Assembly (NCBI RefSeq): GCF_011397635.1
Contig: NC_064770.1
Span: forward strand, 31,023,098 to 31,087,097
DNA: 64,000 bases
Origin: Epinephelus fuscoguttatus
Taxonomy: Eukaryota; Chordata; Actinopteri; Perciformes; Serranidae
Direction: 5' to 3'
The position numbers and the translations under genes were made by a program. Below the pieces are notes generated by a model. The model was not told the DNA's origin. It did not search any database and was given only the letters and a program-made list of their open reading frames with translations. Shown piece by piece: positions 14,560-61,500 of the stretch (the first letter of the stretch is position 1; every line of letters starts with the position of its first letter).

Positions 14560-15375
14560 TGGGTGGGCACAATCCTAGCAGGAAAAACAGCAATGTTTCA
14601 GAAAAAAAATCAACTGTGTTTTGTGGCACTATCCCTGCTGGAAAAATAGCGATGGGTTGCTACAAAACATCCATGTCTGGGGCCTCAAGAGCTGCTGGAA
14701 AAACACAGATGGATCACCACAGACACCTGCATTTAGAGCCTAAAAAGCTGCTGGATAAACAAAGATGGATTGCTGCAGAACACTCATGTTCAGAGCCTTA
14801 AAAGCTGCTAGAAATACACAGACAGGTTGCAACACAACACAGTCATGTGGTGCCTAAAATGCTGATGGAAACTCACTGATGGTTCACTACTAAATGCCCA
14901 CATTTGGAGCCCTAAAAGCCTCTGGAAACACACCAACAGGCTACAAACCACCCACATTTGGAGCCTTTAAAGCCACGGGATCAACAAAGATGCAATACCA
15001 CACCCACATTTGAAGCCTATAAAGATGGTGGAAACATAGGTAGAACAGCCTGTTTTGTTGTTTGTTGGTCTAATGGAAACACACTGATGGGTCACTACTA
15101 AATGCATACATTTGGAGCCTTTAAAGCCTCTGGAAACACATCAACAGGTCACTACAAAACACCTACATTTGGAGCCTTTAAAGCCTCTGGATTGATGAAG
15201 ATAGGGTGATACAAACCACCCACATCTGGAGCCTTTAAAGACATGGGATCAACAAAGATAGGGTGATACAAAACACCTACATTTGGAGCCTTTAAAGCTA
15301 CTGGTACTACAAACACAGGGCAATGCAATACACCCACATTTGAAGCCTATAAAGTTGATGGAAACACAGCTAAAA
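14560..15375. repeat. 56-bp VNTR/satellite-like array
   Basis: About 14 degenerate units. The landmark ttggagcctttaaagcctctgg recurs at spacings of 52-58 bp (for example 15112, 15168, 15226, 15282, 15339). Units on the right are most alike; those on the left are eroded. Confidence 0.85.
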
Positions 15376-31954: not shown

Positions 31955-32806
31955 GTGAAAATACCTTGTTGATGCCAGAGGTCAGAGGAGAGCGGCCAGA
32001 CTGGTTCAAGATGATAGAAAGGCAACAGGAAGTCAAATAACCACTGGTTCCAACCAAGGTCTGCAGAAGACCATCTCTGAAGCAACAACACCTTGTCCAA
32101 CCTTGAAGCAGATGGGCTACAGCAGCAGAAGACCACACCAGGTGCCACTCCTGTCAGCTAACAACAGGAAACTGAGGCTACAGTTCACACAGGCTCACCA
32201 AAACTGGACAATAGAAGATTGGAAAAACATTGCCTGGTCTGATGAGTCTGGATTTCTGCTGCCACATTCAGATGGTAGGGTCAGAATTTGGCATCATGGA
32301 TCCATCCTGCCTTGTATCAACGGTTCAGGCTGCTGCTGGTGGTGTAATGGTGTGGGGGAGATTTTCTTAGTACCAACTGAGCATGGTTTAAACACCACAG
32401 CCTACCTGAGTATTGTTGCTGACCGTGTCCATCCCTTCATGACCACAGTGTACCCATCTTCTGATGGCTACTTCCAGCAGGATAACGCACCATGTCACAA
32501 AGCTCACATCATCTCAAACATGACAGTGAGTTCACTGTACTCCAATGGCCTCCACAGTCACCAGATCTCAGTCCAATAGAGCACCTTTGGGATGTGGTGG
32601 AACGGGAGATTCACATCATGGATGTGCAGCTGACAAATCTGCAGCAACTGTGTGATGTCATCATGTCAATATGGACCAACATCTCTGAGGAATGTTTCCA
32701 GCACCTTGTTGGATCTGTGACACCAAGAATTAAGGCAGTTCTGAAGGCAGAAGGGGTCCAACCTGGTACTAGCAAGGTGTACCTAATAAAGTGGCCGGGG
32801 AGTGTA
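31955..32806 (+). pseudogene. Tc1/mariner transposase, 5'-truncated and frameshifted
   Basis: Strong Tc1-family coding sequence: QFTQAHQNWTIEDWKN, SDES (first catalytic Asp), GYFQQDNAPCH (second Asp) and PDLSPIEHLWD (third acidic residue, DD34E type). The frame shifts near 32520, where the usual sequence between HIISN and EFTVLQWP seems to lack about 11 nt. The 3' end ggtgtacctaataaagtggcc is the usual inner terminal repeat; the 5' terminal repeat and DNA-binding start are missing. Cannot move on its own. Confidence 0.92.
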
Positions 32807-39451: not shown

Positions 39452-39969
39452 TTACTTTAGTTTACGGAGGTGAATTGACCCGTTGGAAAAACTGAAACCA
39501 GGATGGAGCGGTTCACTGAAAGTTGTGTGGACAGTGTACAAGTGGGTCAGTGCATCAGGAAAGACCTCATAAAAGGACAAAATACCCGCTGGCCAGTCCA
39601 GATACACTCCTATGGTACTTCGGTATGTTCTGCGGCCCAGGAAGTTCAGATGGGAATAGTTGTGATAAAAGCAGCCGTCATAACACCAGCACCAAGACTT
39701 TTCATTTTGTCCCAAAGAAAATTCACTTGAACAGTCTCCTGCCCTGTCTATACTTTTGTACGCCACTCCAACATCGGCTGAATCACAATCAACCTCCCAG
39801 TAATGTCGACCAGTCAGACCCTCTTCACACAGTACTTGACAGCTGTCAAATCTGTCTGGATGATCAGAATATGGCTGATTCTCATGAACATGTGTCGCCT
39901 TTTTGTTCTCCTCTGTCAAAATTGCATTCACGCCTGCTGTGTTAGGATCCAGTGTCAGATCACAGGCAT
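39452..39969 (-). other. NLR exon 11: PRY/SPRY (B30.2) domain and stop
   Basis: This 518-nt exon codes residues 1121-1292. The PRY part opens with ACDLTLDPNT. The SPRY part has GRHYWEVD, a DVGVAYKSI strand, the WCWCYDG turn, IGVYLDWPAGILSFYEV and a closing PGFSF. All B30.2 core motifs are present and there is no internal stop. B30.2 domains of TRIM, fish TRIM-like and fish NLR proteins recognise protein ligands through variable loops. The stop codon is TAA at 39454-39452. Confidence 0.95.
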
Positions 39970-42900
39970 CTGCAATCAGAACAGAAGAAATAATTCATTA
40001 GTGCAGTGCAATTGCTCCGTAAGTGTGGGTCTTGATCTCTGATTGTTTGAGTACCATCAAATTAGAGATGTGCTACATCGTGATCAAACCCCACCACATA
40101 ATATGAAAATGTTAAGTCACCAAACTTGAAACAAGGTTGTGTTATATAGCATGTGATGATTTTTAGTCAATAGCCCTATTCGAACGGGATTAGTTTTACA
40201 GGTTTTTTAGGTACGTGGGGTAAAGTAATAATTACCAGAGATTTTAGTCCCGTCCGAATGCCATGTCAGTAATCATTACCGCACGATGTCAGTAAAGATT
40301 ACCGCGACTTTTACCTTCTGTAAAAGGGTCCCGGAAGATTACCTCAGGTAATACTAATCCCGTGCGAATAGACCAGCAGTAAATATGTGTGTGTAGATAT
40401 TTCGTCATATCCTGTTTACAAGTGGTTTTTCGCAGATTTTCAAGCGTGGAGGCTCTTGAAGAAGCACTCAGTTTTGCATGTACTTCACAGTCGGACAAGT
40501 CCGTGTGAAACCTCAGGTACTGTGGGCCTATGACGAACATGATTCAACTGTGTTCGAGTGTGGTACGCACAGGAAGCAACGTCATACGCACATGACGACA
40601 GGAGGGGGCGGCGGTACGTGAATGGATTTGCCCCTCCCACTTGTGGTAGTTTTACTGATATTTCTTATCCTGTGCGAATCGGCCATTAATATTACCGATG
40701 TCCTGTGGTAAAGTGACATTACCCCACGTGCCCATGTAAAACTAACCCTGTCCGAATAGTGCTAATGACTGCACTATTCATTTGGCATGCTGTTCAGATT
40801 GGTTAAGTATTTTTGCAGGTGTGATACTTGTTTAAAGTGAAATGCTGTAACTGCAGTGGGGAAGGAAAGCAGACCAGACTGCACAAGATGCTAAGTACCT
40901 GATTATCTCCATCAGTCATTCATCGCATTTTAAGTTGAGTAACGCAGAGTGGGAAGAACTGCACATCTCTTCTTAAGAAGAGCATATACCATAGCCACAG
41001 AAAATATTCATTCCTGAGTGGCTGAGAAATGTCAGTGGGGACAAACCCAATGTCATTTTTTTCACATGAACATATTCCCCCAATCCCAAACGGATCCCTT
41101 ACAGACTCATTGACTTAAGTCATAAGCCCTTACAGACCTAGGACCAATTCCATTTCTTCCCCTTAGCCCTTGTCTTGGCCCTTAGCTAGTCAACGAGTCT
41201 GTAAGTGATCCATTTGGGATTGGGGGATTGCTAACCTGTGACTGCATGTTCTGACATTTTATTAACACCTTCATAATGACTATTGTATTTTATCTATGTT
41301 TACTTTAGGCCTGTTTCCACCGCAGGAACTTTGGGGAAATTTTACAGGGCTGGGGCCGTTGGTGCGTGTCTCCACCGCAGGAACCACCGCCGAAGGACAG
41401 AGTTCCAGAACTTTTACAGGGGTTAAACAAGTCCCTGCCTCGGAGTAGGTACTCGGAACGGCCCCGAGAAACTCCTGGCTGGGGCTTGTGGATTACTTGG
41501 TGCTGATTGGATACACTCAAGGCAGGATGTGACGTTTTGTAATTAATAACATGGTTATCGTAGATTAGCTGGGCTAACCGTTAGCTGTTAGTGGTGTCTG
41601 TAATAACTCAATAAACGGTCCGTGAATAAAATATTTTTTCCAGCGGATATCTTAGTTATAACATGATTGAGCTAGCAAAGCAGTTTTGTGTTGCTATGTC
41701 TGGTATGTATTCAGTTTTGGGAAATCACGATGTCTAGAAAGCATCAGCTGACAGGGACAGCTAACAGCAGCAGCAAAGCTAATATCAGGACATCATCTGT
41801 TAAAAACCTCCCGTTGTCGGATACGACATGAAACTACTCCAGTTAGCTCAATCATGTTGTAACTAAGACACCCTCTGGAAAAAATATTTTTGTCACGGAC
41901 CGTGACCGGAGTTATTACAGACACTGCTAACAGCTAACGGCGTTCCTACGCCCCTACGTCGCCCCGGTCAAAATGGTCGCACAACAATACGTCACATACA
42001 GAGCCCGGTAACTTTACAGGAACCTTCCTCCTACTCCGCTGTCGTGGAGACACGGCGGTTGAGAGGGCCGAGCGAGAGGACGTTCCCGTAGTAGTTCCTG
42101 CCCCCCAAATAGTACCAGGAACTTCTTCAGTGGAAACAGGCCTTTTGTATTGCTGCTCCGCATGTCGAATGCATGTTGGCCTGGCTGCCTAGAGAAGACA
42201 GGCTGTGTTAGCGCTGTCCACAGAGACAGAGCAACATTTCTTGCTAAAATGTAGCACATCTGAAGACATGAGAACAAAGCTCTTTACAAAAATTAAATGT
42301 AAACTCCAAGACATTGATTCACTCTGTGACCATACTAAAATACAACATGGAAAAAACAGTGTCAGTGCCATACGTGCAGCAAGATATGACAGCGTTAAGA
42401 GACAACCAACACAACAACATATAGTCCATCTCATCACAGATCACACTCTGCCTTTTAATTTCTGGCTATAATTTTGTAATAATTTATATTTATATTATAT
42501 TTTAAGCCTTTAAAAAACTTGCAGACATTCTGCAACATACATGCATGTTACAACACCACAACGTTAGCATTCCATTAAAAATAATTATATGCTTACACTG
42601 TCTCAGTAGCTTCAGGTCAAACCAGCATTCTTCATTTTGGTCCACACTGATGGGAAATAGAGGGACAGCAGACGACAACATTGAAAATATTTTCACACAC
42701 CAAATCAAACAAAGTGAATTTTGGAGATCTGACTTGGAATAATGGTAGAAATGAGAAGACTGCCTGTTTGAGCATACTTGAGTGTCTTTAGACTGTAGTG
42801 TGAATCCATCTGTATTTCAGTCAGGAGCTTGGCTCCTTGATCTGTCAGGTGATTAAAGCTCAGGTCCAGGTCCCTGAGGGTGCAGTGGTCAGACCTCAGA

Positions 42901-45900
42901 GCTGAGGCCAAGGCGGCACATCCATCTCCTGTCACTTTACAGAATGACAGCCTACAGAAACCAAACAACTGACATTTTAGGCGTGTGGTACATGCCCTTA
43001 TCAGCAGCAATTTTCACTCGCTAACATGACACAAACCCTATTTGATTAGTCATTTATCAGGCTCTCCCTTTGGACTTGCTGACATGTAGCACCAGGAATC
43101 ACACTAGTTGACATTTTCAGAGCAGGGCGCAGACCAAAAGAAGGAGAGGCAAAGCACTTGTACCCATAACACAGTAAAATGATTTTTAGAGGTAAATTTG
43201 CATGTGACAGTCATCATCCAATACACTGTATGTATTTACCTCATCCTTATTGATAAGTAAAAAGGGTGCATAAAATATCTGAAACACTGTTAAGGAGGAT
43301 GCAATATGACTCCACAGCCACACAACCACCTACACTGATTAAACACCTCTCTAAAACAGTTCCAGAAAGTTGAGCATGATAAAATCCATGACTGCTATAA
43401 AACACCATAATATTAAAAAAACAAATCTGTATATTAAATTGATAAAGTCAAAATCAATGAGCTATTTATTACACTAACCTGAGTGTTTGCAAACAACAGT
43501 GTGGCTTTGTCAGTGCATCACAGAGTGCCATCACTCCTGAGTCCTGCAGGTCATTGTAGCTCAGGTCCAGCTTTGTAAGGCAGGAAGATTCAGAGCTGAG
43601 TGCTGAGGCCAGTGTCTTACAGCCATTCTCAGTAAGGCTGTTATGACTGAGACTGAAAGACAAATGTAGAAATATCATTCAATTGCTCAACAGAATGTTT
43701 ACAATACTTACTTTGTGTGGCATGTTGTACATATTAGAATTTATTATTTATATATCCTAAACGTTCCCATTCACTTTGACGTTATTAAAATTAACCTTGT
43801 CAGACATTTTTAGCGTACTTACAACATGTTCTCATAAATATAAATAATGATATTTTTCCTGTATTGGATAGGAAAAGCATTAGCGTGTAAGAGGGAGGGA
43901 AAGAGGGGATGACATGCGGCAAAGGGCTATGAGTTGGGACTGAAGAACAAAGCCTTTGTGCATGCTGCACACACAGGTGAGCTGGGGTAGCGCCACTTCT
44001 TTCTTCTATTTTGAACAGTCTTTTACATACCTAAATACCTCAAGAGTGCAGTTTGCACTCATCAGCCAAGTAGACAGGATCTCCATTTCCGAATCTTTCA
44101 AACTGGTATCATTCAGCTCCAGCTCTCTCAGGTTGCTTGGGTTTGATGTGAGCGCCGTCACCAACACCTCACAGATTTTTGCAATCCTAGAATTTCTGTT
44201 CAGTCTTTTGATACAGAGATGATAAAACATGGGGTGTTTAGCAAACAATTTTACATTGCAAAATAATTAAATTCAGTGTTCATATGTTAAATATTGCTTA
44301 CAGAGACAGAGCTTTAACAATAATGAAGGTATCAAGAAGTACCAATAAAAGACAAAAGGATTGCAGCTATTCTGACGATGTCGATGATGCCTTTGTAGCC
44401 AAATACATAATGTCTGCCATATTACACAGCCAAGAAGTTCGATGTAGAACCTTTTAGGGATGGGAGGATGAGAGTAGAGGGAGAGAGGAGTAGGAAAGAA
44501 AGAAGAAAGGATTTTCTGCACGGGCAATTTTGTATTGTTGTTGTTTTTTTCTTTTCTTTTTTTCTCCCTTTTTTGTTTTTTGTTTTTTCTTTATACCATT
44601 TTTAGAGCATTCTGCTTGTTTTGTTTTATGTTGATTATGTAAAGATGTATCTAATTGAAAACATCAATCAGAAAGAAAATGAATAAATAAAAAGTATAAA
44701 AAAAAAAAGATGTAGAACCTTTTATCCATACTACAGTTTTGGAGGGAGTGGTAAAATGTGAACAGTAGTAACTTGAGACTGACCTAAGCTTCTCCAGTGT
44801 AGGGCTGCCCAGCACAACAGAAAGCACAGAGCACAATGAACCTCCCAGTACATTGGCACTCAGCTCCAGTTCCCTTAGATGCGAGATGAATGATTTGATA
44901 GCTGATGCCAACTTTTCATACTGTGATTGTGAGTGTCCCCCACCTGAAAGACTACACAAAAGCAGGCCAAAAATGTCACATGAGTGCAGGGTTAAATGTT
45001 TCAGTCTGGACAGAAGTGGTTAAAAGATCAACTGAAAGGTCGTTGCTGCTAGCACAGCAAACAAGTTGACAACACTGACTATAAGTGGATGAAGTGTTGA
45101 GTTAGTGTCCCTGTTTGTTCGGGCTCATATTGTGGGGCTAATCCTTGATTGGCTGGCTGAGTGCACATTACGCAATTTTTAGTGTATTAATCCTCGAGGA
45201 TGAGAGGCAAAGCCCACTTAAATATGGCAAAATTACCTAGCTTTTTATGTATTTCACTTCTTATACAAATGCATAACTAGAATGTGCTGAAAAAGAAGAA
45301 AACAAATAGCAACACAATAAAATTAATGACAGTTTTACTCACCTCAAAGCTTCTAGTTTACACTGAGAGTTTAGCAGTCCCTCAATGAAGCTCTCAAGAG
45401 CGTTCTCATAAAAGACACAGTTTGTCAGGTGCAGTTCAGTTAGCACAGAGTTTGGCATTCGAAGACCTGAGGAGATTGTTTCACAAAGCCAAGATGTAAG
45501 ATCCACCCCTGAGATTCTGCAGAAATTAAAAAAGACAATCATGCAAGCTAAAGAGTACCAACTTGTGTACATAAGTAATCCTACCTTTCTGCTCATATGG
45601 CACACAACATAATTTTATTATCTTTTTTTATGTAAAGTGAGTGACAAATTGATTGCATGCAGTCCAGATATACCACAGTTTAAGTAACCAACTCACCTTA
45701 CTTTTCTGCTGTTCCTCACAGCTGGGACAAGCCTAAAAATACCCTTTACTGATGGTCTGTATTTCTTCAGGTTGAATTCATCTAGAGGCGTATTTGACAT
45801 GAGAATTGAGTCGGCCAGGGCTGAGCACTGAACAGGGGAGAGCTGCGTTTCTGGAGCTTGATCTGGTTTCAGATACTTCTGTACAGTATCATGTAGAGAG

Positions 45901-48900
45901 CTATCTTTCAGCTCGATCAGGCAGTGAACAAGGTTCAGACATCTTTCAGGTGAGCAGTCACCCAAATCTATTTCTAAGAGACTTGTCCTAATTTCCTTAA
46001 CAACTGTAGAGTGTTCCTCTTCCTGCTGAATCAGGCCTTGAAGCAGTTCTTGTGTTGATCGTAGCGACATGCCAATAAGGAACCTGAGGAACATGTCCAG
46101 TTCTCCTGTCTTTCTCAGAGTTGAATTAGCTACTGAAATTTCCATCAGCTCATCCAAAGGTAAATCAACTGGATGTGCATCCAGGATAGGCTTGAGTTCT
46201 TCGTCAGATCCTTTGAGCAGGAAATCCTTGAGGCTTAGAGAATCTATTTTCTTTCTTGCAAAACTGTGGTACACAAAGAGAGCAGCAAAGTACTCCTGGA
46301 CTGTCAGATGCACAAAGCAGTAGAGTTTCTTTGTGTTGAACACACTCTCTTCTTTGAATATCTCTGTGCACAACCCACAGTTAACTCCAGCTTTGTGTAT
46401 GTCGATGTCGTAGTTTTTCAGGTCATTGGCGGTAAATATAATTTTGCCTTCATTCAGATGTTCAAATGCCATCCTGCCTAACTGAAAAATGAATCCTTCA
46501 TTCGACTTAAAGATCGCCTCTGTATCTGATTCATTTTGTTTGTCGTACTTTTCGGTAGCTACCTGCATTTGAATGCAAAGGAAGTGCGTGTACATCTCAG
46601 TGAGAGTTGTGGGTATCTTTATGTCTTCATCTTGAGTTTTGTCCATTTTTAGCAGCAAGTGTGCAAGAACTTTTGCTGCAAGCCAACAGAAGATAGGTAT
46701 GTGACACATGATGTATAAGCTCCGGGACATCATAATGTTGTTGATAATTCTCTCAGCAACCGCCTTGTCCTCAACTCTCTTTCTGAAGTACTGTATTTTT
46801 TGTGGATCATTAAATCCTCTGACCTCAGTCCACTGGTATATATACTGGCGAGGGATGCGCTGAATGGCTCCTGGTCTTGAGGTTATCCAGACAAGAGCAG
46901 ACGGAAGAAGATGCTCCCGGAGGAGGTTGGTCACCAGAGTGTCCACTGATGATTCCTTTGTGACATCTACCAATCTTTTGGCTGTTTTGAAATTCAGTTG
47001 AAGCTGGCTTTCATCAAGACCATCAAAAATGAACAGAACTTTGTGATTAGTGAATATTCTTGCAACTGATATGTTCTTAAGTTCTGGATGGAACTCTCTC
47101 ACAAGTGTCTCAAGGCTAAACTGATCATCTATGACCAGATTTAGCTCCCTGAATGGTAGCACAAAGATGAAGTCCAGGTCCCGATTGGTGCTCCCATCTG
47201 CCCAGTCAAGGATGAACTTCTTCACTGAGACAGTTTTTCCAATGCCGGCAATTCCTTTGGTCATCACGGTCCTGATAGCTCTTACTTCTCCTCTGTCTTG
47301 CTCAGATGATACACTATCTTCTAGTGTGCTTTTAAAGATGTCATTGCAGTTGATTTTCGTGCCCTCAGCTGTTTGACACTTTGCCTTATCTTCAATCTCC
47401 CAGATCTCATGTTCTACATTGATACGTTCACTCTCTCCCTGTATAATGTGAAGCTCTGTGTAAATTTTGTCCAGTGATTTTGCATCCATGGGATCTTTCT
47501 CAGTGCCTTCAAACTCATATCTGAACTTTTCCCTCAGATATGCTTTGTGCTTTTTGATGACTTCCTTGACAACTTCTTCAGCTGCAATGAAAGAGTGCAG
47601 TGATGTCAGAGCATAATCAAAGCAGTTCCTTGAGGACCACCGCAAAATTTTGAACAGTGTAGTAGTGATGGGCGAAAATGACCGAACAAATCTTTTTGAA
47701 CAACTCTTTTTAATGTCTTTTATGTACCATTCAGCCTGTCAAACATCTGAGTGCTCATGAATCTGTAATGTGTTGTAAGGTGGTGCAGCAAAGGCACTGA
47801 ATGAATGAGTGAGGACTGATTAAATCAGATCTGAGTCGAGACCTCCGCCAGCCAAGGCCAATGACGCATTCACATGCTCCTCAAATGATAATTATTCCGA
47901 CTTGGGTGTGTTGATGAACTTTAAGTTGTACTGTTGAAGGACACAACAAACAAGATGTGTTGGATTTTATTGCTCAGTGTTTAAACAACACGTTAATAAC
48001 AAAGAGCAGAGGGAAACAGATCAGCTGAGCCATGAAATATGATGAGGAACTAATTTTGTCAGACTATTCCCAGAGCACATCAATAGCATAAGGCTGTGGC
48101 GGTAACTGGGACGTCTGCTTCTTCACCTTCAGAGAAAGGCAGATTGTGAGCTCACAGGGCCTACCTATGTACAAGCCGGATTTGGAATCTATGCATTAAA
48201 ATTAATGTTTTATCTCATTCATTTTTGTGGAGTGGGCAGCACTAGCTGTCAAACGTGCACGGACTGTCACTGAGAAACTGACACCATATTTTGCAAAAAG
48301 TTTCAAAACTCAAAAGGTTCAAAGAGTTCGATACATTTACATGTATGAACTCAGGCTGTTCTCATGCACTGTTCGTACATTTTCTAATGAAAAGGAATGC
48401 ACCAAATTTCCCACATATCTTACATAATGATGAGCCAGTATATTGTACATACCCTACGTATTTTGTAAGGCTGTAACCACGTGACCACTGCGCCGATGGG
48501 AGTAGAGAAAATAGAGGGCATTTGTCTCGTAAGAGAGCAGTTTGGGGTGGCGGATGAGTCTTTGTTTCCACAGGACACCAGTGTTCAGAGCAGTGTGGAG
48601 CTGTTTTGAACTTTGAGTCATTTTAAGGTACGTCACCACCACGTTTATTTTCCAACTTTAGTAACTTTAAATGAAGTGCGTAACTTTACGATAACGTCAT
48701 TTGTGGGGCACCAATTCGTAGGATATCATACAAACTATTATGTGAGCATTTTCGTAGGATATCATATGCAGTGTTGTATGAGGATACGTTAATCAACTTG
48801 AAGGAATCGATACAGTAAAAAGAACTGGTCCGCCCATCACTACTGTGTAGTACATTTGATCTACTAATACTGTTTTATCACCAAGCCATACCATAGCTGA

Positions 48901-49850
48901 ATATGATGTCCTCGGTTTCTTACCACACAAACCATTCTAACATTCTATTATTATCATGTTTTACACAAAGACCTCAACAGAGGTCAACATATCAAAAAAA
49001 CATCTCACGTACTTTCACATGTCTCTGGCTGAACCTCCCGAAGGATGTTATAGAAGGCAGATTTAGCTTTTACAGATGTGAGGGTCCTGTAGAGCAACCT
49101 CATCTGCTCCTGGCTGGTCCGGGCAGCCTCGATGTTGCTGTACATCTCTTCCTGCATTATGTTCCTCTGGAGCATCTCATCCGCTATTTTTATCACTAAA
49201 GTGACGTTCTGAATCAGCTTGGCCCTGTTGTTGTCCACCCAGTTAGCCTCTTTAAAAATGATGACAAACACACAATGGCACATGTAATCATCTTTTCAAA
49301 GCAGAGTACCTGGGCTACAAGCATGCAGCAGAATGAGAGGCTTTTTTTGTGATGTGGCTTTTTATGATCACCAAAGCAAGATTTGCGCCTCAAACTTAAA
49401 CTCACCTTTCTCCTCCGTATTGGCTGAAGCAAGTTCATGGGTTTCAGAGAGGCAAGGACTGAAAAGTGGCAAAAACAACATAAAAGTCATCAATTAATAC
49501 TGCTTAGAACTATTACTATTCGTGGTAACTTTTATTTATGTACACATAATAGTGTTTTAGTGTCAATGCAAGTCTTACCTTTGGCTGTTAACTTCAATGA
49601 CAGTGTATTCATGTGCCAGAGTGCTGCTCTTATCATTACAACTACATTTTTCAGAGGAAGTTTCCTCTTCTTGCCTCCTTAAAGTCCCCTCCTCTGTTGT
49701 CTCCTTTAAGGCTCCTCCCTCCTCCTGCTGAGACGACCTTCTCTGCAGGAGAGGAGACACCTCTCTACTTTTCACTGTGGTGGAAACCTCATCTTTCTTT
49801 TGGTCACACTCATTTCCCTTTTTACAGAGTGCAGAGCACTGGCTCCCCAT
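39452..49850 (-). CDS. NLR immune receptor: CARD-FISNA-NACHT-LRR-B30.2 (NLRC3-like, fish NLR-C type), 11 coding exons, intact
   Basis: Predicted cytosolic or membrane-tethered pattern-recognition receptor of the fish FISNA-NACHT family. Exons, minus strand: 49850-49579, 49458-49406, 49249-49013, 47581-45697, 45516-45343, 44951-44784, 44204-44031, 43652-43479, 42951-42778, 42646-42597, 39969-39452. All introns are GT-AG, the exons join in frame, and the total is 3879 nt (1292 residues plus stop). Domains: residues 1-108 acidic, Ser/Glu-rich leader starting MGSQCS; 109-187 CARD; about 190-260 FISNA; about 290-480 NACHT; 816-1103 leucine-rich repeats; 1121-1292 PRY/SPRY. The start was chosen because it is a true ATG in a good context (A at -3, G at +4) and opens the exon chain. 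A possible poly(A) signal lies at 38955-38960. Family and architecture are seen directly; ligand and pathway are unknown. Confidence 0.94.
40172..40763. mobile_element. Foldback/MITE-type DNA element in NLR intron 10
   Basis: The left end CTATTCGAACGGGATTAG and the inverted right end CTATTCGGACAGGGTTAG are imperfect terminal repeats of roughly 50 bp that continue through TTTTACA and ACGTGGGGTAA. Further inverted copies of the ATTCGCAC motif lie inside, at about 40345-40376 and 40670. No coding capacity is recognised. Class uncertain. Confidence 0.7.
41308..42143. mobile_element. Long foldback DNA element in NLR intron 10
   Basis: Terminal inverted repeats are AGGCCTGTTTCCACcGCAGGAAC-like on the left and its inverse (GTTCCTGGTACT to GGAAACAGGCCT) on the right. 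Long subterminal arms also pair: the stretch around 41600-41680 (ataactcaataaacggtccg) is inverted at about 41845-41920. About 840 bp with no recognised transposase, so probably a non-autonomous cut-and-paste element. Confidence 0.75.
42195..42470 (+). mobile_element. LINE 3' coding scrap in NLR intron 10
   Basis: The plus-strand reading includes STETEQHFLLKCSTSEDMRTKLF, resembling the C-terminal Cys/His motif found at the end of L1-like reverse transcriptases (E-x-E-H-F-L-x-x-C). There is no complete domain. It lies antisense to the NLR gene. Family assignment is tentative. Confidence 0.45.
42597..42646 (-). other. NLR exon 10: 50-nt linker exon
   Basis: A small exon joining the LRR block to B30.2. 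The acceptor is cccatcag|T and the donor is CAGT|gtaagc. It codes NVDQNEECWFDLKLLRQ, and the split codon T|AT gives the Tyr of YACDLTLDPNT in the next exon. It resembles the linker of fish NLR-B30.2 proteins (VDxxGExxxxPGLRKY), although the usual Gly and Pro are replaced. Its length (2 modulo 3) is exactly what converts the phase from exon 9 to exon 11. Confidence 0.85.
42778..45516 (-). other. NLR exons 5-9: leucine-rich repeat block
   Basis: Five LRR exons: 45516-45343 (174 nt), 44951-44784 (168), 44204-44031 (174), 43652-43479 (174), 42951-42778 (174). Each starts and ends in phase 2 and codes about 58 residues, that is two ribonuclease-inhibitor-type repeats with LxxLxLSxNxL consensus, for example LTKLDLSYNDLQDSG. 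Exons 8 and 9 are closest to consensus. Exons 5 to 7 are more diverged. Symmetric phase means any exon could be lost or duplicated without a frameshift. The block presumably forms a horseshoe used for autoinhibition or ligand sensing. Confidence 0.92.
45697..47581 (-). other. NLR exon 4: FISNA-NACHT ATPase exon
   Basis: This 1885-nt exon codes residues 188-815. FISNA is seen as HKAYLREKFRYEFEG and KIYTELHI. Walker A is GIAGIGKT with GKT at 302-304. Walker B is LFIFDGLDE at 370-378. The sensor-1 region WITSRP has TSRP at 421-424. CHIPIFCW at 480-487 and FVHLTVQEYFAA further on are typical of fish NLRs. All nucleotide-binding landmarks are present, so the ATPase switch is probably functional. 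The donor is AG|gtgagt at 45697; the overlapping gtaagg just upstream would break the phase. Confidence 0.95.
47655..48850. mobile_element. hAT-like non-autonomous transposon in NLR intron 3
   Basis: The element is 47663-48842 (1180 bp). Both ends read TAGTGATGGGC inward. It is flanked by 8-bp duplications, cagtgtag (47655-47662) and ctgtgtag (48843-48850), with one mismatch. Eight-base duplications and TAGxGxTGxx ends are typical of hAT transposons. No transposase is recognised inside. It shares the GAACAAATCTTTTTGAAC-type motif with the element at 23.0-23.6 kb. Confidence 0.85.
49013..49249 (-). other. NLR exon 3: CARD domain
   Basis: One exon holds a whole death-fold domain of about 79 residues, beginning EANWVDNNRAKLIQNV and ending near AFYNILREVQPE. 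The spacing of helices matches CARDs of ASC and NLRP1 type: W/F-V-D-x-x-R-x-x-L-I-x-x-V at helix 1, A-R-T-S-Q-E-Q-M-R before helix 5, and the closing A-F-x-x-I-L. CARDs recruit other CARD proteins such as caspases or ASC. Of the two possible acceptors only 49249 keeps the frame; starting two bases later gives an immediate stop. Confidence 0.88.
49579..49850 (-). other. NLR exon 1: acylation-type amino terminus and acidic linker
   Basis: Codes residues 1-90 plus two bases of codon 91. It begins MGSQCSALCKKGNECDQKK: Gly2 with small residues at 3 and 6 fits the N-myristoyltransferase consensus, Cys5 and Cys9 are placed for palmitoylation, and lysines follow. The rest is low-complexity Glu/Ser/Thr-rich sequence with no recognised fold. 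The donor follows CAAAG at 49579. Lipid modification is an inference from the motif only. Confidence 0.85.
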
Positions 49851-52800
49851 GATGTTGTGTCCTCGGTGTCAGCTCAGTAAATCTGTCATTTGGAAAGTAT
49901 TTAAATGTCAACAAGTTCTTTTTGAACATGCTTCCCTACAAACATAGCTCTGCTCAGAACAGCCAAACTTGCTTTCATTGTTGTAGAGGGTTTACAACAG
50001 ATCAAACTGCCCTTAAAAGTGAAAGTAAAAACATTTTTGATCTGCATCCATTTTTTATTTATTAATTTGACACATATTGGCAGTGATGTAGTGGAGGGTA
50101 TACGCAGGTATATGGACTATACCCACTTTTTTTCTGACTGTTTACAGCATCTCTTCCTATCAACCAAGAATCCATTGGAATATATAGTAGAGCGGTGGTT
50201 CCCAACTGGTGGGTCACAGTCCAAAAGTGGTCACAGGTCCATTGTGAATGGACCACAAGTGACTCACAAACACACTTTCTTTCTAAGTGAAGTGAATTTC
50301 TGGCACAGAGCTTTTACTTTGAAGGTGTTTTTTACAGGCAAATTCACACATTAACAAACTGTTTAACTGTGTCAAAAGTAAAAGCAATGTCTGAGCTGTA
50401 TTTTTCTTTATCAATACTCTAAAAACAACTCTGGACGCTTTTGATTTTACCAAAACAATATGTAAGATTTCTGACTGGACTATTCATCTGCATTTTTTGG
50501 TATACATTTAAATATCTATTTCCACACAAACAGGCACAGACGCATTCAAATGTGTTGTTTTACCTTTGAGTCTGAGTCCCTGCGGTAAGCTGCAGCAGGA
50601 AATGTGAGCGTGTTGCATTTTCAGCAGGGTGTATCAGCTTGTGAACGATACTAAGAAAGACAGCTTTTATCAGACGCAGGGAGCAAAATTTGGTAGGCGG
50701 ACCCAACTGAGTGTGAGTGAAGTTTGTGTGTGTGTGTGGCAGGAAGGGAGTGGGGTGGGACAGACAAAGAGAAAGGAAAGGCTCTTGCTGCTGCACAGAA
50801 ACTCCAAAACAGTTTAATACCTTTTCTTTTTTATTCTTTTAAGTGGCACAGCTCTCGCACATCAGACCACATCCCCAATTTTAGTGCAAGATCCAACAGC
50901 CTCCAAGTCCACTCAGGCTGTTTCATTTGTCCATGTTTTTGAGTCCAGACTCACTGCAGGTTGACTGGTTGTCTAACTCAGATATCATACATTTAAGCCA
51001 GACAGTTGGCAGCTTTCCTTTGTTAATAATTAACCAGAGTTTCACTGTACTGGGCTACATTTTAGTCCAGGGATTTTGTGGCTTGTTTAATCACAGTGTG
51101 GTGCATGGTCCAAGTTAGTACTGTATGTGGTAACTACAGTATGAATGTCCTTCTAAACAGTCATCCGACATGAACAGAAGTGACGGCACTGCTTTACTTA
51201 CATCAAATACATGAGCAGACAGTGACAACAACACTCCAGTACCCTAATAAACATGCATACTTATTTATACGAGTTCACAGTGAGTACTTCACTGGCTTTA
51301 CCTGACATTTCACTGAATATTATTTCAGTTTGTATGACGTGTCTTGCACAGTTATTGGTGTTCTGAAGAAAGAAAGCTGTTCCTGTCTTCCTAAAATGCA
51401 CACTGACTTGAATGGCACACGAGGTAGTCTTTGAGACAGGAAGTTAAATGACACAAGACTTATGCAGCAACCCAAACCAGCACCCACTTCTTCAGAGGCT
51501 TTGGTGTACAGGAAAATGAGCTACAGTCAGTGAGTGCTGACAGTCAGTCACCGACCACAGGTCTCTGTATTACTGTTAGCTGCCCTTTTGGCTTCAGGTT
51601 GGGGATCTTGGCATTTGCTGTCCTGTATAGTTACTCGCCGTGACAACATCCTGGTGGCTAGTGTTGTTTTCATCTCATGAGCGTGTGTATGTGTCATCAT
51701 GGCAATATGTGGTCCTGGTGACAACAGTTGCTGTGGGGACTACCACAGAAGCCATTTTGAGGACTTTGCCAGGTGTTTTTGTGCCTGTATAATTGATCCT
51801 TCGCTAAGCACCGCCCCTTTGTGATGGTCAGACAAGCTGTCAGAGTAAGCATGGAGCCCGCACTGTAACTAACTGCACTCCCTGAAGAAATATTATCATA
51901 TTTTTGGAGAAATGAAAGAGTGATTCCAGAGAGAAGCAGACAGAGGGGTCTACAGTCTGTGTTTGAAGGATATATCCAGGATGTCAAACTGACTCAGCAG
52001 CAACAACAGGTTAAAAAGACAAAGATAGTTAGAAGCTAAAGCCGAACTATAGGCTACAGATCACAGTGTAAAAGTGAACCACCACATCACTGCTGATCGC
52101 CACACAAGACAATGAATATAAAGGGAAACTTTGCTGATATTGAACCAGCTGTGTGGCATCACAGTGTGCAGATGAACTGTGTTTGGCTTCACCCCCGTGC
52201 TGCTGCTGCCCTCTGCCACCTCTGCCACCAGATGGGCACAGATCTCCTGGGGAAGTCAAACAACGTTCATCTGCGCACACTGCGATGACACAGAGCTGGT
52301 TGAATATCAGCAAAGTTTCCCTGCTTCCCTTCACTGGTTCCTGTACAGCAGGGTCGGTCTTTGTTTCACTGTTATAATCATTAAAAGCAAAAGCAGCATG
52401 TGTATACATTCAGTAGGCTATATCTTCAGTAGCTAGCTAGCTAACCCTACACTTTTCAGGGTTTGATTTTGGTTTTGGAACAGGGAAGAAACGTATATCT
52501 TTTTCCAACCTCTCCAGGTAACAAGTATCATTAATACATGACGTGCCCCAGGCACAACATTTAGCTCCACAAAACCAGCCTGACAATGAAGGAAATCTGA
52601 AACGACTGCGTTAGAGTCAATGGAGCACAGCTGTGTTGTTGTCGGAGCCTGGTCTGAGCCGGCCCGGTGCTACATTATAATTGGCCAGTCTGTGTCCCAG
52701 ATGGGACTTTGCCCCCCACTTTACACCCCTGGCTCACAAAACTTTAGAGTCGTGTAATGAAGATCTCGATGGCCAAGTTCAAAGATGGGTGTGACCCGAG

Positions 52801-58340: not shown

Positions 58341-58551
58341 CTAGTCCGGTATGGCTCTGGTATCAACTTTACTGTAAGGTCCGTATCGGCCGAACTTGTC
58401 TTTGCCTATTACGGCGACACAAACCTTGTGTCCGGGCTTGTACTTGCTGACCATCACACACATGGGCAGAGGGTTGGCCGGCACCTCACCAAGGGTGGTC
58501 CAATCTCGAAAGACGCCGGTGCCCTTCTGCTTCTCCATGGTCATGAAGATG
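58341..58551 (-). other. ATF7IP-like last coding exon: FNIII second half and stop
   Basis: Starts with the base completing AG|C, then codes [17 protein letters not shown], the [11 protein letters not shown] hairpin and the KFGRYGPY strand G region, ending AIPD and TAG. The acceptor is tgctgcag|C. It is the most conserved-looking stretch of the gene. Confidence 0.82.
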
Positions 58552-61500
58552 CTGCAGCACAGACAGACAGAGAAATGAGAAAGCGTGACTAAAGCAACGG
58601 AGCAACTAAAAGAACAAAGACTACAAAGGGAAGGAGAGCTGTGGTGAAGACCACTAACTGGCTGAGTCTGCCTCCATCTGGTGGTCATGTGTTGACATAA
58701 GCAGTGTATTCCTCAGGTAGATGTGTAAAAGATATCAGTCCTATAAAGAACCTGGCTGAGTGTGACAGCTTGTCTCAGAGGATGAGCAATGATAATTGAG
58801 TTGTGTCACGTGCCGCACACCGCTTGCATCAGATATCAGCATCTAAAATCTTGTAACTCTACTGAAACTAAAACCATTAGTCGATAAATCAATTTGTCTA
58901 CTGACACAGTAATAATCTGCAATGCTTTCAATGATCGATTGACCAAAATTGTAAAAAAAAAAAAAAAAAAAGCTAAAGTTTAAGGATAAATACTTACACA
59001 CTTCTCAACTATCTGACATTTCCGCTGTGCTTATTTCATATACTTTGTTGTTTTGCTATCATCTGTGATAAACCAAATATACTGTCATGGAGGCTATGCA
59101 CTGTACTGCTGTGGACAGGCTGCAGCAAATGTATTTTAGCCACCTAAAAAAAAAAATCAACAACTGTTGAAAAAGGCTGTCTGGCAGCAAGGTGAGGCTG
59201 CGAACGAAGATATTCTAAATATAGTGTAGACTCAAAGTGATAGATCTTTTATTTTGGTGGGCCTTTTTAGGTGACTAAAATCTCGTTGGGGTGCCCAGTA
59301 TCTCAGTGGATAGAGCAGGCACCCGATATACAAAGGTAATGTCCTTGCTGCAGCTACCACGGGTTAGCTTCCAGCCTGTGGCCCTTTGCTCCATGTTGTC
59401 CCTTCTCTCTCCCCCTTCACACTTCTAACTTTCCTGTCATTAAAGCCCAAAAGCCCGACAAACTAATTGGGCAAAGTTTGCTCAGCGCCATTTGATTTCA
59501 TGTACAAGTTTTTGTATACAGACAGTGTGATTCGGTCTACACATTCTCAGGTTCAGGTTTCTATAATGGCAGGATTTGCCGCGCCTCTTTGTGATCAACC
59601 ACAACATTAAAACCACTGTCAAGTGTAGGGACAGAGCAGTATTCTAAACTCCCGTGTTGCCAAGTCCGTTTATTATAAGCGACTTTGGACTTGTTTTTCT
59701 ATAAAGTCACTTACAAATTTTGGTAGTTGCGGATCGCGTTTTTTTTTTTTGGGCTTGTTTCTAAAGCGTAGTTGCTTATTTGGGCTTGTTCCCAGCTCCA
59801 TAATAAGTTGTCAAGCAGATATTTTTGATATGTTATTTAAACGTAGGATAGTTTGTCTTGCCTGTTCCCTCTGTCCCTCCCCTTTCCCCATACACACAGG
59901 AGACAGCAGAGTTTTTTCCCACCCGCATCCTGCTTCTAATTGGCTCTGACCCTGATGGCAACGAGTACTAGCCAATCAGAGGCAGAGCAGGGTAATGTGT
60001 TTTTTTCCTGGTTAGGAAAACGTCAGTCCTGTAACTAAAAGAAAAAAGATGAGTGCATAAAAAGCAATAATAAATAAAGAATTTGTGAATTCAGAATGAT
60101 ATTTATTTGTGTGTGCAAATTTTAATTATCAGAAGTTTACTGTGTATATAATGTACTTGGTACATCAGTCTATATTTGATATCCCATCTGTTTTCTAATG
60201 TTAAATAATGTTAAAAGGTGGTTTAACTCCCTCTTGTAGTCATTGTCCTCAAGCTCAGGGGGGAGAAAAATAAATAAACTATGTACCGTGGGTACAGTTT
60301 TGCAAAACTGCGCACAGTTTAACAATCTGTCCACATGGATGTAAATTGACAATCTGTACTCACAGTTTAAAATCCGTCCCCACAGTTTATTTAATTTTCT
60401 CTCACCGGAACCTAGGGGGGCTCCATAGAAAAAGTCGTTTGTTTTGGGCTCGTTTTCACAGGCCTGGTTGCTTATTTGTCTCGCGAGATCTGGCAACACT
60501 GCTAAACTCTCCAGATTGGACTACAATAGACAACGAGAGACCACCGCAGGGTCAAATGTTTAGGACTCAACCCCGTAATCACCCCCAGTCCTGACAAACA
60601 CTCCTTTCAGCCATCCTAGGATCTTAAGACAATGCTTCTTTTCTCAACCACATCCTGTCCATTCCTGTCACCCCGGGGAATCACACCCCTCCCCTCTCTC
60701 ACCAAATGTTCCTGAGCAGAAACTTCGTACATCTCTGGATGTGAAATTATACAGTTGTTTCCCTTATTGTTTTCTTTTCCATATCCTAAACTTGTACATG
60801 TGCATAATCCATGTTTGTTATCTGAATTATATTTTTCTTTAATCCTGTAAAACAAAAGATTAACGAGTTGCAAATTCAGTTTCTTTTAATCCCTCATTTA
60901 ACATGGAGCTATACTGCCATCTTGTGACGGCAGTTAAAGTGGGTTCCCATATGGAGCCCCATATTATATTTAGAATTAAAATATAGTTGGATTTATCAAT
61001 CAACCTGTTTGCATGAATATGTGCTTCCTCATTGTGTTTTTCTTTATATATTGCAACTATAGGTTAGTCTAGAGTGTGTGTATTTGAAGCAGTTTAGGCT
61101 ATACATGTACTTTGCTGATACACGCGGTATAATAACAAGGAAGCGCAGCGCGTCTGCTCTTACTCTCTTCTTTTTCTTGTCCTCTTGCTCTTCTTTTCGC
61201 CTCTTAATCTCTTCTACGTCATTTTCCGTACTCTTCGTCTCTTTTGTTGTTGTTTTTTGCCTTTTTCGTTTTTGTCCACGTGCTTTTGCCGTATTTTATG
61301 TTTTAGCCAGTTACGGTTCCTGCGTAACTCTTACTTGCTCACAATCAAAGTTAGTTTAAACTTTTAAAGTTTTACTCATCCAGTTTTTCTTTTACCTCCA
61401 GTGCCTTCAGTAACATTATACTTGAAGTGATGAAGCCAGTCGATTTTTACATTTTCATGCGCGTTAATAGTAACTTTGATAACAAGATCGAACGGCCAAC

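Follow-up and report, generated by a model that had tools for sequence, protein, structure and literature searches.

A 64-kb window of the genome of the grouper Epinephelus fuscoguttatus (the whole stretch of DNA analyzed, numbered from its first nucleotide) carries on its minus strand, at positions 39452–49850, a complete NLR gene whose product joins an N-terminal CARD to FISNA, NACHT, leucine-rich repeat (LRR), and B30.2 domains. Judged by sequence comparison, this gene is a lone lineage in the grouper genome, conserved across acanthomorph fishes, and its product begins with a conserved N-terminus whose chemistry would be compatible with dual acylation.

Gene structure and domain organization

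The gene spans 10.4 kb including introns, and our own splicing rebuilt it as 11 exons with no internal stop, GT-AG borders at 10 of 10 introns, and every exon junction in phase (Table 1). The first splice model gave a product of 1289 residues; with the exon 7 acceptor placed 9 nt upstream, the coding sequence measures 3879 nt (1292 codons and a stop). The best public protein match (P0001, 1292 residues, Epinephelus fuscoguttatus, named "NLR family CARD domain-containing protein 3-like isoform X1" by NCBI) matches our first translation throughout, apart from three additional residues where exon 7 begins; these fit an acceptor at 44204, and the one first placed at 44195 was dropped. The gene is real and precisely described, but it is already in the NCBI annotation. 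The 50-nt exon 10 was missed by a strict-filter scan for linker exons and recovered by a looser scan. An in-frame stop precedes the ATG by 7 codons, and the start context includes A at −3 and G at +4. With the upstream acceptor of exon 7, the 11 exons, 3879 nt, absence of stops, and in-phase junctions of the initial annotation are reproduced.

Table 1. Exons and other features of the grouper NLR gene (window coordinates).
Feature	Position	Strand	Description	Basis
Exon 1	49579..49850	-	Start codon, MGSQCS N-terminus (predicted myristoyl-Gly2 / palmitoyl-Cys5), fast-evolving tail	Splicing, P0001 identity, G2/C5/S6 conservation
Exon 2	49406..49458	-	53-nt linker	Splicing, P0001 comparison
Exon 3	49013..49249	-	CARD (residues 109–187), 237 nt, phase 1-1, skippable in frame	Pfam PF00619, AlphaFold, CARD comparisons, isoforms
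Exon 4	45697..47581	-	1885 nt; FISNA, NACHT, winged helix, HD2	
Walker A	47232..47255	-	GIAGIGKT, residues 297–304	Invariant in 38 aligned sequences
Exon 5	45343..45516	-	LRR region	Splicing, P0001 comparison
Exon 6	44784..44951	-	LRR region	Splicing, P0001 comparison
Exon 7	44031..44204	-	LRR region	Acceptor as NCBI protein implies
Exon 8	43479..43652	-	LRR	Splicing, Pfam, P0001 comparison
Exon 9	42778..42951	-	LRR	Splicing, P0001 comparison
Exon 10	42597..42646	-	50-nt linker, VDQNEECWFDLKLLRQ	Splicing, P0001; conserved in relatives' consensus
Exon 11	39452..39969	-	PRY-SPRY (B30.2) and stop codon	Pfam PF13765, PF00622
ISRE/IRF-like site	50017..50030	+	AAGTGAAAGTAAAA, ~170 bp upstream of ATG	

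The domain assignments are firm, with every match in the 1292-residue protein above its Pfam cut-off (given second in each pair, in bits): CARD at residues 111–184 (39.9; 23.9), FISNA at residues 199–271 (75.8; 28.1), NACHT at residues 291–459 (106.3; 26.7), NOD2_WH (54; 23.1), NLRC4_HD2 (84.6; 33.1), LRR_6 (60.6; 23.4), PRY (47.9; 27.5), and SPRY (46.5; 26.3). This bears out the complete CARD-FISNA-NACHT-LRR-B30.2 protein that had been proposed from the DNA. A PYD found no match in the Pfam scan of the protein up to an E-value of 1. The complete gene is not a chance arrangement, because full-length relatives with the same domain set exist in other fishes.

The ATPase core was compared in 38 sequences, comprising the grouper protein and 37 relatives hand-chosen from a set of 76 (see below). 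No substitution was seen in the Walker A motif (GIAGIGKT, 297–304), DGLDE (374–378), TSRP (421–424), or the winged-helix CFVHLT (609–614), residues whose roles belong to the general knowledge of NLRs. Alignment entropy per domain was lowest in NACHT (0.61) and the winged helix-HD2 region (0.65), followed by FISNA (0.98), PRY-SPRY (1.04), LRR (1.06), and CARD (1.16). Past residue 109, the most variable windows lie at 1232 (a SPRY stretch) and at 883 and 852 (the LRR region), and such variable LRR and SPRY surfaces would fit a role in recognition. Of the folded domains, the CARD differs most between relatives, at a median identity of 62% to the grouper, which weighs against tight constraint.

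Two matches come from the source "lgn", which we take to be Logan assemblies of sequencing runs. These contigs (P0015, 5171 nt, encoding 1297 residues; P0035, 4877 nt, encoding 1282 residues) align over 100% and 99% of the grouper protein, respectively, with no long gaps; P0015 starts MGSQCS, and P0035 starts elsewhere. At ~5 kb, compared with a grouper gene of 10.4 kb, they are most likely spliced mRNA, so that a full-length CARD-to-B30.2 message most likely exists in related fish, on evidence that does not come from the grouper. The suggestion that the gene is a good candidate for a working sensor is reasonable in view of the complete domain set, these transcript-like contigs, and the invariant ATPase residues. 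Stretches of LRR exons are absent from two other matches (P0029 and P0053).

A lone lineage conserved across acanthomorphs

Among the 120 public proteins listed, 76 (grouper included) form the lineage set at 56–100% identity (56–78% for relatives other than the grouper itself), separated by identity from the other 44 at 38–45%. A Pfam CARD is present in 70 of the 76 and in 0 of the 44, among the matches listed. The 76 include isoforms and multiple copies per species (e.g., Oreochromis aureus, Cololabis saira, and Poecilia latipinna), and the lineage has therefore been duplicated in some groups. One member, P0072 from Sarotherodon, is labelled "nuclear receptor co-repressor 2", an apparent annotation error.

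A tree was built from 63 hand-chosen FISNA-NACHT sequences (19 lineage members, 20 grouper paralogues, 20 other fish proteins, and 4 NOD-like grouper sequences). All 19 lineage sequences fell in one clade on a long stem (SH-aLRT 100), and support was again 100 in a second tree under a mixture model, built without the 4 outgroup rows. At the base of the clade lies Lampris, a lampriform acanthomorph (the grouper being a percomorph), followed by Centroberyx/Diretmus/Myripristis, a branching that resembles the species tree, as orthologues would. The lineage is tentatively placed outside nearly all other sampled FISNA-NLRs, a placement that rests on long-branch outgroups. In a search for the lineage outside acanthomorphs, a Pfam CARD was seen in none of the proteins outside the set of relatives among the 120 listed of 7973 profile matches, a share too small to establish absence.

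In the grouper genome, 1.05 Gb in 26 contigs with the window on contig C19, a FISNA-NACHT search returned 73 match rows, for which the best 70 of 233 candidates were scored; besides the exon itself at 100%, the nearest other exon is 46% identical over the whole exon and 48% over a part. The nearest other CARD is 45% identical (15 matches), and the nearest other B30.2 is 54% identical among the matches listed (153 matches, with 150 of 452 candidates scored). Internal stops occur in 5 of the 73 FISNA-NACHT rows. Rather than an exceptional survivor among pseudogenes, as the gene had been portrayed, we see a conserved, NCBI-annotated acanthomorph lineage.

Other candidates for N-terminal-CARD FISNA-NLRs in the grouper were rejected. 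Four CARDs precede a same-strand FISNA-NACHT exon by no more than ~15 kb. Three of them are 75–100% identical to CARDs downstream of other NACHT exons, and the fourth, at C23:16940147, shares 82% identity with a CARD downstream at C23:16961963, so we read all four as C-terminal CARDs of neighboring genes. Five further CARD-NACHT neighbors (C2, C8:37.79 Mb, C20, C23:23.99 Mb, and C24:0.97 Mb) have NACHT domains only 22–29% identical to that of the present gene, NOD-like and not of the FISNA type. These candidates are the matches listed only, and further N-terminal-CARD FISNA-NLRs could exist. Separately, the CARDs L058–L063 (C8, C21, and C23) are 75–100% alike, with several downstream of other FISNA-NACHT exons, which suggests that the grouper has a group of C-terminal-CARD FISNA-NLRs like goby group 6.

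N-terminal acylation signature

The grouper protein begins MGSQCSALCKK, a feature that the initial annotation did not mention, and most alignment rows start MGSQCSALRRGK or similar. The grouper MGSQCSALCKKG fits a Met-Gly start with a small residue at position 6 and a nearby Cys and basic residues; the myristoylation pattern used was PROSITE PS00008-like, and dual-acylation motifs are general knowledge. Among the matches listed, this pattern occurs at Gly2 in 52 of the 76 lineage proteins, 45 of which also have a Cys in residues 3–7 and at least two K/R in residues 7–14. Neither G2 with [STC]6 nor the full pattern was seen in any of the 44 other matches listed, many of which are partial or fused models.

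Because the predicted start lies elsewhere in many gene models, relatives were also picked by exon 1 similarity from residue 13 onward. This retained 46; the 30 others, including Lampris, were truncated, had a different start, gave no anchor, or matched too weakly. Of the 46 with an alignable exon 1, 39 keep G2 and 37 keep C5, while 38 combine G2 with [STC]6 and 36 have all three residues. Conservation of C5 and S6 is 0.94 in 33 motif-bearing rows of alignment A1 (selected for G2 and S6, with C5 not a selection criterion), against an average of 0.51 for residues 13–90. The signature is also kept in the basal Lampris row of the tree (P0116, MGSQCT). Losses include P0002, which has Trp2, and P0007 and six cichlid entries, which lack a Cys in residues 3–7; the six cichlid entries have CC or WC at positions 9–10 instead. 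The N-terminus thus stands out as a conserved stretch within an otherwise rapidly evolving tail, with a chemistry that would fit dual acylation.

An acidic dileucine sorting motif in exon 1 (EVSPLL in the grouper), an idea modelled on LAMTOR1, was dropped given that [DE]xxxL[LI] occurs in the first 90 residues of only 23 of the 76. No N-myristoylated animal NLR is named in the titles and abstract openings on myristoylation and NLRs, a body of text with most subscription journals outside its coverage. Recruitment of NLRs to membranes by palmitoylation is known, for NOD1 via ZDHHC5 (PMC13286793), and NLRP3 is palmitoylated by ZDHHC7 (PMC12134225). Lipid attachment to an NLR is thus not new in kind, but joint myristoylation and palmitoylation at the N-terminus would give it a new form.

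CARD type and probable partner

A profile built from ten CARDs of the lineage was searched against the sequences of solved CARD structures. The best match was the zebrafish GBP-like CARD 4irl (E 4e-21), followed by NLRP1 (5e-11), 5gpq (titled zebrafish ASC CARD, 6e-11), and BIRC2/cIAP1 (2e-6), with other ASC entries from 4e-6, NLRC4 at 8e-5, RIPK2 at 0.004, NOD1 at 0.009, and caspase-1 at 0.14. In structural comparisons with the AlphaFold model of the grouper CARD (mean predicted local distance difference test score 92), the zebrafish GBP-like CARD again scored highest (15.7), ahead of zebrafish ASC (14.8), NLRC4 and CARD8 (both 14.6), NLRP1 (13.7), human ASC (13.4), NOD1 (12.7), caspase-1 (12.3), and RIPK2 (11.2). 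By profile and predicted fold, the CARD falls with the inflammasome type (ASC/NLRP1/GBP/NLRC4/CARD8), with modest fold margins over other CARDs. Zebrafish Gbp4 is itself a CARD protein whose antibacterial function requires Asc (PMC4932187), and we infer ASC to be the likeliest partner of the grouper CARD.

A search with residues 1–190 found 31 proteins, comprising 27 relatives and four Salmo proteins (P0121–P0124). The latter combine a Pfam CARD with Ig-type Pfam domains and are 40–42% identical to the grouper CARD region.

Place among known NLR systems

The grouper protein shares with the fish NLR-C/NLR-B30.2 family the order of FISNA then NACHT and a gene plan with one large FISNA-NACHT-winged helix-HD2 exon and the other domains on their own exons (PMC4852459), here exon 4, one CARD exon, five LRR-region exons, and one B30.2 exon. 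A C-terminal B30.2 is shared with groups 1, 2, 3, and 5 of the fish FISNA-NLRs (PMC6988351, Table 4). The groups in that table are told apart by Walker A, end-of-exon motif, and N-terminal type; the Walker A GIAGIGKT would fit group 3 and the end of exon 4, LVPAVRNSRKVR (relatives' consensus LxPAVRNCRKAR), would loosely fit groups 3 and 6, but for a CARD as the N-terminal type the table has no column. The difference from this family (zebrafish groups 1–4 and goby groups 5–6) lies in the N-terminal CARD, which replaces a PYD or peptide repeats.

Howe et al. 2016 (PMC4852459) assign death-fold domains or peptide repeats to the zebrafish NLR groups, and no mention of CARD was found in the main text; zebrafish NLR-C proteins are described with a pyrin or an uncharacterized effector domain (Laing et al. 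2008, PMC2268669). At least eight architectures are given for fish NLRC3 and NLRC3-like proteins, none of them CARD with FISNA in the text available (PMC9978379). The CARD-FISNA-NACHT-LRR-B30.2 architecture was not found in the available text of two reviews (PMC12436146 and PMC8122782), nor was "CARD-FISNA" found in a literature text search. A sturgeon paper mentions a CARD in some NLRC3 homologues (PMC10253273), and CARD-bearing members have therefore already been noticed. In the round goby, 1 N-terminal CARD and 12 C-terminal CARDs are reported alongside 343 FISNA-NACHT (PMC6988351), and the single N-terminal CARD may be the same gene.

NLRC3 shares an N-terminal CARD, NACHT, and LRR with the grouper protein; however, NLRC3 proper (the CARD-NACHT-LRR class of PMC9978379) is without the FISNA and B30.2 found here. 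The terminal B30.2 is common to the grouper protein and to piscine, not mammalian, NLRP3 (PMC9978379), while NLRP3 has a PYD in place of the CARD. By both sequence and fold, the nearest CARD of known structure belongs to a zebrafish GBP-NLRP1-like protein, whereas zebrafish GBP4 has a GTPase rather than a NACHT domain and carries its CARD at the C-terminus (PMC4932187). The grouper CARD scores best with GBP, NLRP1, and ASC, in a compared list that held no NLRC3 CARD, and in our view the gene is misnamed "NLRC3-like". NOD1 and NOD2 are not known to have FISNA or B30.2, and NOD1 and RIPK2 score low with the grouper CARD profile.

Surroundings in the window

The ISRE/IRF-like (interferon-stimulated response element) site is the only match with up to two mismatches to AAGTGAAAGTGAAA on either strand of the 64 kb, for a consensus chosen after the site had been seen, and may be regarded as a weak lead. 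Intron 10 (39970–42596) contains inverted-repeat pairs at 40165–40770, 41076–41227, 41307–42143, and 41578–41940, one nested in another, which look like small DNA transposons of the MITE (miniature inverted-repeat transposable element) type. Pfam gave matches for two of ten other open frames in the window. A 206-residue frame at 31959–32579 (+) has a Tc3-type transposase helix-turn-helix domain (PF01498; a transposase fragment), and a frame at 58341–58712 (−) matches fn3_4 (PF16794, E 2.6e-18), probably an exon of a same-strand neighboring gene. Rfam and tRNA scans of the window gave no match. A minisatellite at 2261–2931 has nested periods of 21, 42, and 165 bp, and two nearby arrays (14682–14887 and 15107–15354) have 57-bp periods with differing consensus units.

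Proposed function and significance

The reading we favor, at an even chance, is that of a conserved acanthomorph NLR acting as a membrane-tethered, CARD-type inflammasome sensor upstream of ASC/caspase-1. N-myristoyltransferase would lipidate Gly2 and a DHHC enzyme would palmitoylate Cys5, and the receptor would thereby be held at a membrane. At rest, the FISNA-NACHT-winged helix-HD2 core would be closed and ADP-bound, as in NOD2 and NLRP3. The LRRs and B30.2 would then detect a pathogen-derived or pathogen-altered ligand, upon which ATP-driven oligomerization would cluster the N-terminal CARDs and nucleate ASC (or caspase-1) filaments, leading to IL-1 processing or pyroptosis. In-frame skipping of the CARD exon could in turn yield a tethered, headless isoform able to damp signaling.

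The initial annotation held that transcripts skipping the CARD exon would speak against a working sensor. In part, this is what relatives show, as isoform X2 of Seriola dumerili (P0033) and of Trematomus bernacchii (P0043), both gene predictions, lack exactly residues 109–187, the CARD exon, a pattern that points to a possible regulated loss of the CARD head. These isoforms in two species are also in keeping with a membrane-tethered brake, in which the CARD, or the rest of the protein once exon 3 is skipped, would bind ASC or other NLRs and limit inflammasome or NF-kB signaling. In both goldfish and zebrafish, NLRC3-like was found to bind ASC, and the zebrafish protein has been read as an inflammasome suppressor (PMC9978379). 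However, that paper defines NLRC3-like proteins as NLRC3 homologues without a CARD or with additional domains, and the proteins tested therefore need not match the grouper one. An intact ATPase and CARD would be expected of an active, oligomerizing sensor, though a brake could retain both, and we consider the brake unlikely while ranking it first among the alternatives.

Slightly less probable again is an ordinary cytosolic sensor with an unacylated MGSQCS, conserved for, e.g., translation start context or as a binding motif. Eight of the 46 relatives whose exon 1 could be aligned lack G2 with [STC]6, as this explanation would allow, though most of the eight have a different predicted start; against it stand the conservation of C5 far above that of residues 13–90 and the retention of the signature in the basal Lampris. 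Signaling in the manner of NOD1/NOD2, via RIPK2 to NF-kB and not ASC, is improbable, for while the N-terminal CARD-NACHT-LRR order and a NACHT model that aligns equally well to NOD2 and NLRP3 are compatible with it, the CARD profile scores GBP, NLRP1, and ASC far above RIPK2 and NOD1, a similarity that is no proof of partner. A decaying or unexpressed gene with an accidentally intact frame is highly implausible: the family has many damaged copies in some fishes, such as the round goby, where most FISNA-NACHT exons were frameshifted or carried a large insertion, for which faulty assembly is one possible cause (PMC6988351), but a frame open over 1292 codons, ten introns with good splice sites, relatives of similar length with the same domains, invariant ATPase residues, and the isoform numbers of the NCBI model all argue otherwise.

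Under the membrane-tethered sensor that we favor, the gene would encode an animal NLR that carries its own lipid anchor at the N-terminus (myristate at Gly2, palmitate at Cys5), in which sensing and inflammasome nucleation take place at a defined membrane, the anchored architecture is stable across acanthomorphs within a family noted for runaway expansion, and CARD skipping serves as its own brake; this fuller proposal we hold tentatively, at a little under an even chance. FISNA-NLRs number in the hundreds in zebrafish (PMC4852459), so single copies are hard to study. The grouper gene, for which the matches scored in its own genome include no close copy and which has recognizable acanthomorph relatives, is amenable to knock-out, tagging, and following. 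It would show that a CARD, and not only a PYD, has been joined to the FISNA-B30.2 chassis and, if the lipid signature is real, would provide a constitutively membrane-anchored NLR. Groupers are farmed fish, in which a sensor of this kind could be relevant to disease resistance.

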